Positions 33,848 to 39,132 of a stretch of DNA of 64,000 bases are shown here, one piece after another. A model generated the notes under the pieces. The model made no database searches. It worked only from the letters and a program-made list of their open reading frames with translations, and was not told the origin of the DNA. The first letter of the stretch is position 1; each line of letters opens with the position of its first letter. The position numbers were made by a program, and so were the translations under genes. Source of the stretch: an uncultured Flavobacteriaceae bacterium (GTDB taxonomy: Bacteria > Bacteroidota > Bacteroidia > Flavobacteriales > Flavobacteriaceae); assembly GCA_947494695.1 (NCBI GenBank), contig CANLWB010000003.1, positions 186,001 to 250,000 on the forward strand. Reading direction: 5' to 3'.

Positions 33848-34543
33848 ATGAAAGTAATAAAAGACAACACGTTAAGAAGTAAACATGTTATCTTGGCATT
33901 TACCTTGACTGCATTGATCGACATGGTTTCAGTGTCCTTGAATCTATATCAAAATTCTGTTCTTAAAGGTTATGAAATTGGAACGTATGATTCCGACAGG
34001 ATTAACCTTCTTGATAATATGACCATTGCACTGGGAACTATACAGTTTATCCTTTTTGTTACAACCATTGTTTTATTTATTAAGTGGTTTAGAAGAGCTT
34101 ATGGTAACTTAATTAGATTAAATGTGTCCATGGCGTATAGCGAAAACTCAGCCGTTTGGGGATATTTTATTCCTATTATAAATTGGGTTAGACCGATAAA
34201 AACCATGAAAGAAATATTTTTAAAAACGCAACAAACAATCAAAGCATATAGCTCCAATATTCAGATGGATCAAAATACTGGTTTTATTACGCTATGGTGG
34301 ATCTTATACTTGGTAAATGGCGGCATTGCAAATGTTGCCTCGAAACAAATGAACAGAGCCGATACTATCGATGCTTTTATAGAAGCAAATAATATCTATG
34401 TCATCTCAGATTTGCTAGACCTACTAGCTATCGGACTAGCAATTTATGTCGTACAGCGCATTGCCAAACTCGAGCTTATCTTGATAAAAACCGATACTTC
34501 ATTGTCTCTTATAGATCAGATTGGATCCAATCCGGAAATTTGA
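33848..34543 (+). CDS. DUF4328 membrane protein
   Basis: 231 aa with four membrane helices (about 14-35, 60-85, 150-170 and 190-212). The family signature is clear: IKWFRRAYGNLIRLN, then WGYFIPIINWVRPIKTMKEIF, which is the W-F-I-P-I-x-N-x-x-x-P-x-x-x-M-x-E-I motif of DUF4328. Inner membrane, function unknown. It is a single gene with a good promoter, and it is followed directly by the tandem repeat array. Confidence 0.85.
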   Translation: MKVIKDNTLRSKHVILAFTLTALIDMVSVSLNLYQNSVLKGYEIGTYDSDRINLLDNMTIALGTIQFILFVTTIVLFIKWFRRAYGNLIRLNVSMAYSENSAVWGYFIPIINWVRPIKTMKEIFLKTQQTIKAYSSNIQMDQNTGFITLWWILYLVNGGIANVASKQMNRADTIDAFIEANNIYVISDLLDLLAIGLAIYVVQRIAKLELILIKTDTSLSLIDQIGSNPEI

Positions 34544-34581
34544 ATAACGACTTACGCATGTCCTATTTTTGCTAAAACATT

Positions 34582-35668
34582 ACTATGCAATGCCTCAACC
34601 CTTCTAAACTAGAGCGCCAATTCAACTCAGTGCTATTTTGACCCTTCGACTACGCTCAGGGTAAGCGACTCACACACTTTTGCCTAGGCAAAAGTGGTTG
34701 AACTAGTATATTATAGTGTCAGTTATAGAAATGGAGCGTATAGTTCATATTAACAATCATAGTTCTCATGTCTCTTCGAGTTAATTTGCCAAGGCAACGA
34801 AGCAAACTTGTATCGAGAAGCAAGATTAACCTTCCTCGCTACTGCCACCTTTCGGCTGGGTACGGATACAGTAGACATCACATAATTGTGATAAAAATTA
34901 CTACGCAATGCCTCAACCCTTCTAAACTAGAGCTCCAATTCAACTCAGTGCTATTTTGACCCTTCGACTACGCTCAGGGTAAGCGACTCACACACTTTTG
35001 CTTAGGCAAAAGTGGTTCGCTATAACTAGCATACCATAGGGTCAGTTCAAGAAAACAGCCCCTATAGTTCAGAGTAACAATCATAGTTCTAGTGTCTCTT
35101 CGAGTGAATTTGCGAAGGCAACGAAGCAAATTTGTATCGAGAAGCAAGATTAACCTTCCTCGCTACTGCCTCCTTTCGGCTGGGTACGGATACAGTAGAC
35201 ATCACATAATAGTGATAAAAATTACTATGCAATGCCTCAACCCTTCTAAACTAGAGTTCCAATTCAACTCAGTGCTATTTTGACCCTTCGACTACGCTCA
35301 GGGTAAGCGACTCACACACTTTTGCTTAGGCAAAAGTGGTTGGCCATAACTAGTATATTATAGTGTCAGTTATAGAAATGGAGCGTATAGTTCATATTAA
35401 CAATCATAGTTCTCATGTCTCTTCAAGTTAATTTGTGAAGGCAACGAAGCAAATTTGTATCGAGAAGCAAGATTAACCTTCCTCGCTACTGCCACCTTTC
35501 GGCTGGGTACGGATACAGTAGACATCACATAATAGTGATAAAAAATACTATGCAATGTCTCAATCCTTCTAAACTAGAGCTCCAATTCAACTCAGTGCTA
35601 TTTTGACCCTTCGACTACGCTCAGGGTAAGCGACTCACACACTTTTGCTTAGGCAAAAGTGGTTCGCT
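34582..35668. repeat. Tandem array of ~320-bp structured repeats (about 3.3 copies)
   Basis: Units begin at 34582, 34900, 35224 and 35547 (periods 318, 324 and 323 bp); the fourth stops after about 120 bp, 3 bp before the stop codon of the mutase gene. Each full unit contains CCCTTCGACTACGCTCAGGG, CACTTTTGCYTAGGCAAAAGTG (a near-perfect 22-bp palindrome), a long inverted repeat CTTCGAG...GCAAAYTTGTATCGAGAAG, CTACTG...CAGTAG and ATCACATAATNGTGAT. Units 1 and 3 agree with each other in a variable middle section where unit 2 differs, giving an A-B-A pattern, and the truncated unit 4 ends like unit 2. Frames of 63 codons inside it are by-products. Confidence 0.9.
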
Positions 35669-35670
35669 GC

Positions 35671-38600
35671 TTACATGTTTCGGCGATACTGTCCGCCTAC
35701 TTCAAATAAAGCACTTGTTATTTCTCCCAAAGAACACACTTTACAAACTTCCATCAATGACTCAAAAATATTTTCATTGTTAACAGCTTTCGTTTGTAAA
35801 TCCTCGAGTAATTCTTTTGTATCATTGGCCTCATGAAGATTTTCCAAAGTTCTTATTTGATATTGCTTTTCTTCCTCCGTAGCTCGAATCACCTCTTTTG
35901 GTAGTACGGTTGGTGATCCTTTTGAACTTAAAAATGTATTCACTCCAATAATTGGAAATTTACCATTATGCTTTAAGGTTTCGTAGTATAGGCTTTCTTC
36001 TTGAATTTTACTTCTTTGATACATGGTTTCCATAGCACCTAAAACACCTCCTCGTTCGGTAATTCTATCGAACTCAGTTAACACAGCCTCTTCAACCAAA
36101 TCGGTTAACTCCTCTATGATAAACGACCCTTGAATTGGGTTTTCATTTTTGGCAAGTCCTAATTCTTTATTTATAATAAGTTGAATCGCCATGGCACGTC
36201 TTACCGATTCTTCAGTAGGCGTTGTAATAGCCTCATCATAGGCGTTTGTATGCAATGAGTTACAATTATCGTAAATCGCATATAAAGCCTGCAATGTGGT
36301 ACGAATATCATTAAAATCTATTTCCTGTGCATGTAAACTACGCCCCGAAGTTTGGATATGATATTTAAGCATTTGAGCTCTGCTATTGGCTCCATACTTA
36401 TATTTCATAGCTTTCGACCAAATTTTTCTTGCCACACGACCAATTACAGCATACTCCGGGTCGATACCATTCGAGAAAAAGAAAGATAAGTTTGGGCCAA
36501 ACTTATTAATATCCATCCCCCTGCTTAAATAATACTCAACATACGTAAACCCATTAGAAAGCGTTAAGGCCAACTGCGTAATGGGATTTGCTCCGGCTTC
36601 TGCGATATGATACCCCGAAATAGATACCGAATAAAAATTACGAACATTATTTTCTATAAAATACTCCTGAACATCTCCCATCAACCTTAAAGCAAACTCC
36701 GTAGAGAATATACAGGTGTTTTGCGCCTGGTCTTCTTTTAAAATATCGGCCTGTACCGTTCCTCTAACCTGTGTAATGGTTTTTATCTTAATATCATTAT
36801 AAACATCTAAGGGTAATACCTGATTACCAGTAACACCAAGTAGCATGAGTCCTAAACCATCATTCCCTTCTGGCAATTCCCCATTATATTTTGGTCGTTC
36901 TTTGTCTTTATAAATATCTGCTATTTTGGCTTCAATCTCCTTTTCCAGGCCATTTTCTTTAATATAAATTTCACATTGCTGATCTATGGCCGCATTCATA
37001 AAAAAGCCTAGCAACATTGGGGCTGGTCCATTAATTGTCATACTAACAGAAGTCATAACATCTGCCAAATTGAATCCAGAATACAGTTTTTTAGCATCAT
37101 CTAAGCAACAAACGGAAACACCTGCATTTCCAATTTTTCCGTAAATGTCTGGACGATGATCTGGGTCATTACCATAAAGCGTCACACTATCGAACGCGGT
37201 TGATAAGCGTTTAGCAGGCATTCCCATACTCACATAATGAAAACGACGATTGGTACGCTCCGGCCCTCCTTCACCCGCAAACATTCTTGCTGGGTCTTCC
37301 CCTGTTCGTTTAAACGGATACAAACCGGATGTATATGGAAACTCTCCAGGAACATTTTCCTGTAAACACCATCTTAAAATATCACCCCAGGCCTCATATT
37401 TAGGTAAGGCCACTTTTGGGATTTGTAAATGAGATAAAGACGCCGTATGAGTTTCGATCTTAATCTCTTTATCTCTTACTTTAAAGGAATATATTGGAGA
37501 TTTATATGTATCTACTTTCTCTCCCCAGGCTATAATGGTTTCCCAATTATAAGGATCTAAATCCAGTTTAACTTTATCAAATTCCTTTAATAACAACTCT
37601 AAAAACGTCTTATCGCCATCATTATGAGCAAGGTGCAAAACTGCTTCGCCATTTAAACCCGATTTTGAAATTAAAGTTTCTCCATTTGAGTCTGCTTCAA
37701 GCGTAGTAAACGCACTTTTAATATTGGCAACTGAACAAATGGTCTTATATATCCCATACAGTTTTTGAGCGGCTTCCACCTGATGCTTTGCTTTTTGATC
37801 GTATGCCCGGTTCGATTCGGCTATTTCGGATAAATAACGGGTTCTTGATGGCGGAATAACAAAAACCTTCTCACTCATTTCATCAGAAATACTAAAAGAT
37901 GATTTAAGATTTGCATCTGTCTTTTCAACCAGCATATCAATCACAGCTTTATAAAGCGTATTCATCCCTGGGTCGTTAAACTGCGAGGCAATGGTTCCAA
38001 AAACCGGCAATTCTTCTTGTGGAATATCCCAAAGGTTATTGTTACGCATATACTGTTTTTTCACATCTCGTAATGCATCTAAAGCCCCCCTTTTGTCAAA
38101 CTTATTAATAGCTACCAAATCGGCAAAATCCAGCATATCGATTTTTTCCAACTGTGTTGCCGCTCCAAACTCTGGAGTCATAACATATAAAGACATATCT
38201 GAATGCTCTATAATTTCGGTATCCGATTGTCCGATACCAGACGTTTCCAAAATAATCAGATCGTACTCTGCAGCTTTTAAAATTTCAACAGCTTCATTGA
38301 CATATTTGGACAATGCCAAATTGGACTGACGTGTCGCCAAACTACGCATATAAACACGTGGAGAATTAATAGCATTCATACGAATTCGATCACCCAGTAA
38401 GGCTCCACCAGTCTTTCGTTTTGAAGGATCGACCGAAACAATTCCAATAGTTTTTTCTGGAAAATCAACTAAAAAACGACGTACCAATTCATCAACCAAA
38501 CTCGATTTACCAGCCCCTCCAGTACCTGTTATTCCTAAAACCGGAGTTTTAGAATTCTTATTTTTAGAATGAATTTTGACTAGAGTATCCTTAGCGACGT

Positions 38601-39132
38601 CAGGAAAATTTTCTGCCGAAGAAATAATACGGGCAATAGACCTGGAGTCTTTCTTCTCTAAATTATTTTGCTCCCCATTTAAAACATCTCCAATAGCGAA
38701 ATCCGATTTTTCAACCAAATCATTAATCATGCCTTGTAAGCCCATTTCACGCCCATCATCAGGAGAGTATATTCGTGTAATTCCATGTTCCATTAATGCT
38801 TCGATTTCTGAAGGCAGAATCACACCGCCTCCACCACCAAAAATCTTGATATGCCCGGCACCTTTTTCCTTCAACAAATCGTGCATATATTTAAAATACT
38901 CGTTGTGACCTCCTTGGTAAGACGTTAAACAAATGGCATTGACATCTTCTTGTATCGCAGTATTAACAACCTCTTCGACACTTCTATCATGCCCCAGGTG
39001 AATCACCTCCACCCCTGTGGCTTGAATAATTCGACGCATGATATTAATAGACGCATCATGGCCATCAAATAATGATGCAGCAGTTACAATTCTAACTTTA
39101 TTTTTGGGTTTATATGGAACCTGTTGTTTCAT
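35671..39132 (-). CDS. icmF: Fused isobutyryl-/methylmalonyl-CoA mutase with built-in G-protein chaperone
   Basis: 1153 aa, cytoplasmic. Residues about 12-140 are a cobalamin-binding domain ([15 protein letters not shown] supplies the DxHxxG-like loop; [11 protein letters not shown] follows). Residues about 195-420 are a MeaB-type GTPase with Walker [10 protein letters not shown] and NKFD. From about 560 to the end is the mutase barrel with [52 protein letters not shown] and [12 protein letters not shown]. This three-part order defines IcmF. The PFKR rather than PWTIRQYAG substrate loop favours isobutyryl/n-butyryl-CoA over methylmalonyl-CoA, an inference. It uses adenosylcobalamin. The repeat array abuts its 3' end. 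Confidence 0.93.

Follow-up and report, generated by a model that had tools for sequence, protein, structure and literature searches.

The repeat array beside icmF

The window analysed here, a stretch of 64,000 nucleotides from the genome of an uncultured Flavobacteriaceae bacterium, contains a tandem array of long, palindromic repeats that lies between two convergent genes. The first of these, on the plus strand (33848..34543), is an open reading frame encoding a DUF4328 protein of 231 aa, as recognized by Pfam; the second, on the minus strand (35671..39132), is a reading frame of 1153 aa that corresponds to icmF, the gene name being that given in the original prediction. The array itself (34573..35668) was described by Tandem Repeats Finder as 3.4 copies with a period of 324, 92% matches and a score of 1922, and a repeat search of the window resolved units of 318-324 bp, with four copies of a 126-nt part (starting at 34575, 34893, 35217 and 35540, at spacings of 318, 324 and 323) and three copies of a 300-nt part. 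The units that had been placed at 34582, 34900, 35224 and 35547 are in the same phase as these starts, shifted by 7 bases. Two further features noted at the outset were also recovered: the repeat stops 3 bases short of the icmF stop codon (its limit being 35668, and the stop codon occupying 35671-35673 on the minus strand), and units 1 and 3 are alike where unit 2 differs, with the segment 34701-35000 being 97% alike to 35348-35647 and 87% alike to 35025-35324. Two reading frames of at least 60 aa lie wholly inside the array, one each in units 1 and 2, and both are 63 aa in length.

The claim that every unit carries the same set of palindromes held for most of that set. The 22-mer palindrome CACTTTTGC(C/T)TAGGCAAAAGTG occurs four times, without a mismatch in unit 1 and with one in each other copy; CCTTCGACTACGCTCAGG is likewise found four times (none being expected from 100 shuffles), and CTACTG...CAGTAG (palindrome D; 35163..35198 in unit 2, corresponding to unit bases 271-306) is present in all three full units. 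The exception is CTTCGAG...TATCGAGAAG (palindrome C; 35098..35145 in unit 2), which occurs in units 1 and 2 but reads CTTCAAG in unit 3, and is therefore not retained in every unit. The two palindromes of the array that were tested both occur far above chance, and the palindromes of the array are members of different repeat families. For palindrome D no relative was seen, the matches of relatives extending at most to unit base 274.

When the 324-bp unit was compared with its own genome, just two pieces of it, of 45 and 31 bases, matched elsewhere; the proposal of a mobile repeat family with a 320-bp unit is contradicted by that result. The whole unit was found only here; the proposed local growth of the array is supported. 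The unit displayed no match in plasmids or phages (E 1e-5), and an identity as a plasmid or phage repeat was rejected. A copy search in related genomes nonetheless found pieces of the unit in 18 of 60 genomes (own genome included), falling into two zones at approximately bases 57-129 and 171-274; an examination of icmF 3' ends throughout the genus (12 genomes) indicated that unit bases 66-129 are the counterpart of a block with its start at the icmF stop codon. As judged from these comparisons, it is the partial copy next to icmF that has relatives, and the 320-bp array is a local amplification of an icmF element with neighbouring dispersed palindromes, the amplified segment taking in the unrelated palindromes C and D.

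A compact element at the icmF stop codon

The selected unit is accordingly not the 320-bp repeat that had been envisaged, but a core of approximately 75 nt that contains the icmF stop codon and is common to other genes and genera. This element opens with the last codon of icmF and its stop (AUG UAA), lies on the minus strand in the window, and consists, in order, of a helix termed P1 (UAAGC/GCUUA, with the stop codon inside it), a non-Watson-Crick loop (AGNGA/GANUC), a hairpin (HP1) and a second hairpin (HP2). On the sense strand of the preceding gene its consensus reads A(U/A)G-UAAGC-AGNGA-RCC-HP1-G-H-GYGA-NUC-GCUUA-YCC-HP2, and it contains the conserved linker GUGNGNGARUCGCUUA.

The first complete copy of the element, including last codon, stop, P1, internal loop, HP1 and HP2, occupies 35602..35676 on the minus strand (contig C3 221602-221676). 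It scores 92.4 bits with model R1 (built from 14 first copies) and, over 35627-35676, 69.3 bits with model R2 (built from 88 first copies and limited to P1-loop-HP1), although neither is an independent score, this copy belonging to the alignments of both models. Against those 69.3 bits on the minus strand, R2 gives 16.4-17.3 bits on the plus strand of the array, and the structure of the array, as modelled, is strand-specific. Sequence and covariation place the 5' strand of P1, with the UAA of icmF, at 35669..35673 and its 3' strand at 35627..35631; HP1 (35640..35661), located by palindrome search and covariation, is the 22-mer palindrome of the original prediction, and HP2 (35606..35627) is in this case a dispersed REP-like palindrome, ACCCTGAGCGTAGTCGAAGGGT, as assessed by sequence and copy counts. 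Downstream copies were identified by models R1 and R2 at 35279..35351 (consisting of HP1, linker and HP2, with the UAAGC strand of P1 lost), at 34955..35032 and, most distant from icmF, at 34637..34711, all on the minus strand.

Within the genus, the icmF 3'-end block has the form TAAGCAGNGAACC-hairpin-GTGTGARTCGCTTAYCC-hairpin, and is recognizable in 11 of 12 genomes and degenerate in the twelfth (G002). The 16-mer ATGTAAGCAGNGARCC occurs at 24 sites in all 12 of those genomes (one to three in each, and two in ten of them), and its reversed control at none. The second hairpin has acquired an insert in two of the 11 recognizable icmF blocks: at the icmF ends of G009 and G001 (L116 and L117), the inverted repeat CAATG(T/C)CATTAAGTTAAGG...CCTTAACTTAATG(A/G)CATTG, which is MITE-like, lies inside the HP2 loop. 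In a further genome (G005), the HP1 loops of the elements behind an RDD-family gene (L175) and icmF (L185) are mutual reverse complements (GCTTTGGC and GCCAAAGC), as if a palindrome had been flipped.

Host genes and distribution

Every genome of the genus (12, own genome included) gave a match to model R1, as did 47 of 199 sampled genomes of the family, the latter figure indicating that the element is either dispensable or often undetected. Matches to R2, obtained with strict filters and from overlapping samples, were found in 11 of 246 order-wide and 9 of 296 phylum-wide genomes, all of them labelled as belonging to the same family; given those filters and samples, and with 19-24 candidates scored per genome out of thousands in the family, order and phylum scans, the absence of the element outside the family is weak evidence. 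The core pattern displayed no exact match in viral contigs.

In the genus of the window, the block is also found after a gene of the RDD family, whose product ends in YTQDM, and one of the CMD family, whose product ends in NKLEM; in these the last codon is again ATG and the stop codon TAA forms the first triplet of the block. Behind icmF it is present in other genera too: among the matches listed, 15 of 80 named icmF loci carry the element (R1, E <1e-3), its start coinciding in each with the last icmF codon, with one of these carriers (L048) having been part of the R1 alignment and another (L079) coming from a metagenome bin whose label, Chitinophaga, is doubtful.

A broader collection was assembled from 100 loci in 56 genomes, with one locus taken per cluster of R1 matches and later tandem copies excluded. 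Five clusters stand outside that collection (own C14, which continues at the C3 end, those behind icmF in G001 and G009, that behind the RDD gene in G010, and one in G017), and all but the G010 cluster were inspected separately. The triplet at the stop position is TAA in 92 of the 100 loci, TGA in six and not a stop in two, and it closes an open reading frame of at least 60 aa in 90. The suggestion that the position at the gene end matters is supported. The ten loci that lack such a frame comprise five dnaK cases (discussed below), two with no stop triplet (L230 and L271) and three with a very short frame (L204, L212 and L273), of which L273 (UGA, with a reading frame of 12 aa) is probably no real element and was excluded from the named-class set. 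The linker is recognizable in 96 of the 100 loci; of these, 90 belong to a named gene class, and the 88 distinct ones constitute the alignment (A4) used below.

The host genes at those 96 loci are icmF (27), the RDD-family membrane protein (25), dnaK (20), the CMD-family gene (7), a cyclophilin-FKBP isomerase fusion (6), the SDF dicarboxylate symporter (5) and others (6). Their last codon (n=98) is ATG in 59 cases, AAG in 24, AAA in eight and another in seven. Nine first-copy matches, including near-identical pairs from related species, were found in genomes outside the R2 training set; eight of these close reading frames of more than 500 aa, and the host is icmF in six, htpG (Pfam HSP90), a gene without a representative in that training set, in two, and a frame that is interrupted 13 codons before an icmF-like end in the remaining one. 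Weaker, divergent forms of the element are found at rpoC and aldehyde dehydrogenase ends (L272, L275 and L274). Recognition of the element should aid the annotation of the 3' ends of dnaK, htpG and icmF.

Covariation and conservation of the core

Covariation among collected copies was assessed on A4, an alignment by MAFFT of 88 distinct first copies that had been found by structure model R1 and cut at the linker anchor, a mode of sampling that favours paired copies. Across 17 pairs, 95.2% of cells are paired versus 80.4% in shuffles; 14 of the 17 display two-sided changes, in 208 cells versus 54.2 in shuffles; and the covariation score is 0.409 versus 0.135, with none of 500 shuffles (which are uncorrected for relatedness) equalling any of five measures. 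Pairing falls to 31-48% when the partner columns are slid by 1-3, and RNAalifold recovers P1 and HP1 from A4 unaided. The expectation that the palindromes are kept as structure is supported by these compensating substitutions in the stems of the core, RNA being the probable form.

The stop codon takes part in this pattern. Among the 90 elements of named gene classes, and with relatedness ignored, the column that partners the stop codon is C in three of four UGA elements versus two of 86 UAA elements (Fisher p 3.3e-4), and the adjacent pair of P1 alternates between C-G and U-A (Fisher p 6e-10). The UGA elements with an intact P1 (L218 and L223, behind RDD genes, and L242, behind a CMD gene) come from three different genera and represent two gene families; at least some of the compensations were therefore independent. 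The U-A form of one P1 pair is concentrated in dnaK copies (9 of 20, versus 4 of 76 others), a distribution that fits descent with the gene.

The loop between P1 and HP1 is also conserved. The pattern AG.GA/GA.UC is retained in 72 of 96 elements, and the five opposed positions of the 5x5 internal loop are A.C in 81, G.U in 80, A.A in 63, G.A in 74 and A.G in 80 of 89, with the middle position pairing as C-G in seven cases and as U-A in five. Such a conserved non-Watson-Crick loop may reflect a protein or tertiary contact. Folding z-scores for four typed copies range from -3.6 to -5.6. Across 96 elements G-U cells (42) barely exceed A-C cells (33), and covariation alone is therefore no proof of RNA on the sense strand as opposed to single-stranded DNA.

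Tandem amplification of the core

Arrays of the core were found with units of 56-324 bp and 2-12 copies. The unit length differs between genomes (324 in the window, and 87, 90, 89, 85, 69, 88, 86, 76 and, in L079, 56), and at several icmF ends of the genus the extra tandem copies are spaced 70-92 bp apart rather than 324; this variation indicates that the arrays arose repeatedly. Linker-like extra copies within 200 nt are found after icmF at 13 of 27 loci, RDD at 12 of 25, dnaK at 2 of 20, the FKBP fusion at 2 of 6, the symporter at 1 of 5, other genes at 0 of 6 and CMD at 0 of 7, the last count missing a Gelidibacter array because its units keep the 3' half only. A recurrent kind of tandem array would in this manner be explained as the amplification of a conserved seed. 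In the window's own genome, a second array lies behind an RDD gene (L168) and is cut by contig ends, including the end of C3.

Later copies within arrays keep HP1, the linker and HP2, and have mostly lost the UAAGC strand. Restoration of P1 in downstream copies was not apparent as a general excess of upstream pairing to the linker, in a comparison whose copy labels are partly confounded by spurious matches to coding sequence. In the Gelidibacter CMD array (L242), the units keep the 3' strand of P1 and HP2, and at least one of them has a clear new 7-bp helix (GAGCGAT/ATCGCTC); it is the only array in which such a helix was found. Variable columns are only slightly less frequent in the linker (11 of 144) than in the spacer (57 of 393; p 0.04) across nine arrays of at least four copies (eleven having been inspected), which weakly suggests constraint on the copies within arrays.

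A proposed role in mRNA fate, and its alternatives

On the basis of sequence comparison, the element is read as a new 3'-end mRNA structure that would most likely act on stability or termination. More specifically, we would give a probability of roughly one half to the proposal that a helix closing on the stop codon forms an mRNA 3' structure that tunes the yield of a few genes, and that the window array is a local amplification of it. An mRNA element is favoured by the combination of descent with genes, restriction to one strand, a stop codon within the helix, and separate terminators downstream. During termination, the ribosome footprint places the 5' strand of P1 and the adjoining loop strand in the mRNA channel, with HP1 beginning near its entry; this geometry suggests a 3' structure that closes once termination traffic stops, and so sets stability or protein binding. 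A terminating ribosome would cover the 5' strand of P1 and the loop strand and hold the lower part open; once ribosomes were gone, the helix would shut on the stop codon to form a compact 3' structure, and the closed form would either shield the coding region from 3'-to-5' decay or bind a protein. For a small set of proteins that are abundant or related to stress (DnaK, HtpG, the prolyl isomerase, IcmF and others), the yield would be tuned in this way. At the window locus, the icmF element would have been multiplied in place along with palindromes acquired beside it, its downstream copies representing additional hairpins, mostly without P1, in the same 3' UTR.

A more ambitious and still tentative extension is that of a post-transcriptional regulon in Flavobacteriaceae, in which the stop-codon helix reads ongoing termination and sets mRNA life for chaperones (DnaK, HtpG and cyclophilin-FKBP), the B12-dependent IcmF and a few membrane proteins, and in which arrays are dose variants that grew independently. 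There are few reports of control by structured RNA in the 3' UTRs of bacteria, and post-transcriptional control in this family has been little studied; because UAA and UGA covary with the 3' UTR, a connection between termination and mRNA fate becomes directly testable.

The leading alternative, although an unlikely one, is that of a mobile DNA palindrome family, akin to REP/BIME sequences, that happens to settle at gene ends and whose stems are conserved as single-stranded hairpins on which a transposase or nuclease depends. REP/BIME sequences of E. coli and other bacteria are 3'-UTR palindromes found in tandem arrays, for which a role in mRNA stabilization has been proposed, and the element resembles them in forming such arrays and in its HP2, which in many cases is a REP-like palindrome dispersed through the genome (within the genus, each genome has 6-73 exact copies, and the control none). 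The weak asymmetry between G-U and A-C cells would also be accommodated, and three Y1_Tnp matches are present in the window's own genome. In addition, HP1 sequences behind different genes within one genome are more alike (0.293) than those of different genomes (0.202; 0 of 500 permutations), which hints, as far as sequence likeness can, at copying between loci. Furthermore, in five dnaK loci (L197, L199, L229 and L232, from four congeners, and L251, from another genus), the REP palindrome CCTGTCCTGAGCGAAGTCGAAGG or a close form of it lies at the stop codon, and the gene end is duplicated around the REP as an exact repeat of 11-23 bp; the true stop in these cases, a TAG, lies 47 nt upstream, and it is after the second copy of the gene end that the element is found, with its loop kept in four of the five. 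These cases reflect either targeted insertion or a shared ancestral event, and the retention of the element in four of them indicates that the stop codon is not indispensable or that the events were recent.

Against the mobile palindrome reading, P1-loop-HP1 is found, in the collection of 100 loci from 56 genomes, at just 1-4 loci per genome, on one strand and with a stop codon in 90 of 100, whereas REP sequences are of high copy number and lie at variable distances from genes; by that measure HP2 alone behaves as a REP sequence and the core does not, nor is the core extragenic and free of reading frame. The same gene families host the element across genera, an observation on which the idea of a mobile element with a preference for stop codons in general was likewise set aside; in addition, the U-A form of P1 tracks dnaK, as would be expected with descent, and the non-Watson-Crick loop is conserved.

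Rather doubtful is the possibility that the element represents a small RNA derived from the 3' UTR, released by a cut close to the stop codon and active in trans, with arrays serving to raise its dose. It begins at the stop codon, has a conserved linker, exists in multicopy arrays, and is followed within 200 nt by a canonical terminator in 19 of 96 cases (0.05 being expected from mononucleotide shuffles); in the model, however, most of the linker is paired or belongs to the loop, and it offers no free seed. That the element is a passive local satellite, a tandem duplication without function, is improbable: the 324-bp unit is found in its own genome only and unit length differs among genomes, and for the whole 320-bp unit that description is likely, but it is refuted for the core, which is conserved and covarying across many genera. 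The test originally set for passive duplication, namely units found only here with palindromes mutated in relatives, correspondingly divides, with the whole unit conforming to it and the core, whose stems are compensated, failing to do so. Finally, that the element is a transcription terminator or an ordinary end-of-operon hairpin is very improbable, and that identity was rejected, because, although it sits at gene ends (in the window, between convergent genes), canonical terminators lie separately and further downstream in 19 of 96 loci, the window copies have no U-tract after HP2, no site with a GC-rich hairpin and U-tract was called inside the window array, and an ordinary terminator needs neither a stop codon nor a conserved loop.

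Relation to described RNA elements

To our knowledge, no motif described in bacteria takes the stop codon itself into a helix and recurs behind unrelated genes, and searches of open-licence PMC papers listed no description of the present one. Bacterial SECIS elements and readthrough hairpins are placed just after a stop codon, at the point where mRNA enters the ribosome, and the hairpins of the element are similarly positioned; in contrast to those systems, its stop codon is itself paired, and its HP1 loops vary in length and are not multiples of three, so that no downstream reading frame is kept. As in structured 3'-UTR RNAs, pairing is compensatory (A4) and the sense-strand position is constant (90 of 100 loci, all 15 of the icmF carriers listed, and eight of the nine held-out matches).

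None of the families of Rfam 15 reached its gathering threshold in the window, in the array or in 20 carrier loci, and an identity with a known RNA family was rejected. Below threshold, the array gave SNORA51 (20.1 bits versus 50) and the carrier loci gave five matches, the nearest being C0465 (35.8 versus 40), whose match starts at the very end of the L267 element and extends for the most part past it. The nearest described kind is the L17 downstream element (RF01708), which is characterized as a candidate structured RNA that lies in the 3' UTR of one gene in Lactobacillales and Listeria, with structured-RNA control in 3' UTRs being termed highly unusual in bacteria (PMC2864571). The stop-codon element is similarly a structured RNA candidate in a gene's 3' UTR, and differs in being associated with several genes, in belonging to Flavobacteriaceae, and in having the stop codon within a helix. 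The Flavo-1 RNA motif (RF01705) is likewise a candidate motif of Flavobacteriaceae, and widespread there, but had no match in the window, the array or the 20 carrier loci. An account of Flavobacterium psychrophilum describes, in the portion available, structured 5' elements along with Flavo-1 in either orientation (PMC9723704), and that portion of its main text makes no mention of a stop-codon element; other repeat families are described in PMC3733652 and PMC4679880.

Palindromes and nuclease genes

Single-domain GIY-YIG nuclease genes (encoding approximately 98-120 aa) were observed to be bracketed by repeats, several of which are palindromic and which belong to differing families. These genes are L013/L028 (one gene), L017, L025 and L029 and, in the window's own genome, L302, L303, L304, L306, L307 and L308, with L305 and L311 (internal stop) and L313 (not framed) excluded from the count. 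An exact repeat of at least 14 bases joins the two flanks in all ten of these distinct open genes (which are non-independent, palindrome C having led to the four relatives and one tandem triple accounting for three of the own copies), and a repeat of at least 12 bases was present in 0.9% of approximately 2000 random window draws; such a flank repeat is absent from three genes for long GIY-YIG proteins (L309, L310 and L312). A palindrome-plus-nuclease unit, by analogy with REP-RAYT systems, is possible. Palindromes of the HP2 type flank L302, and some relatives of palindrome C, located elsewhere, flank the GIY-YIG relatives.
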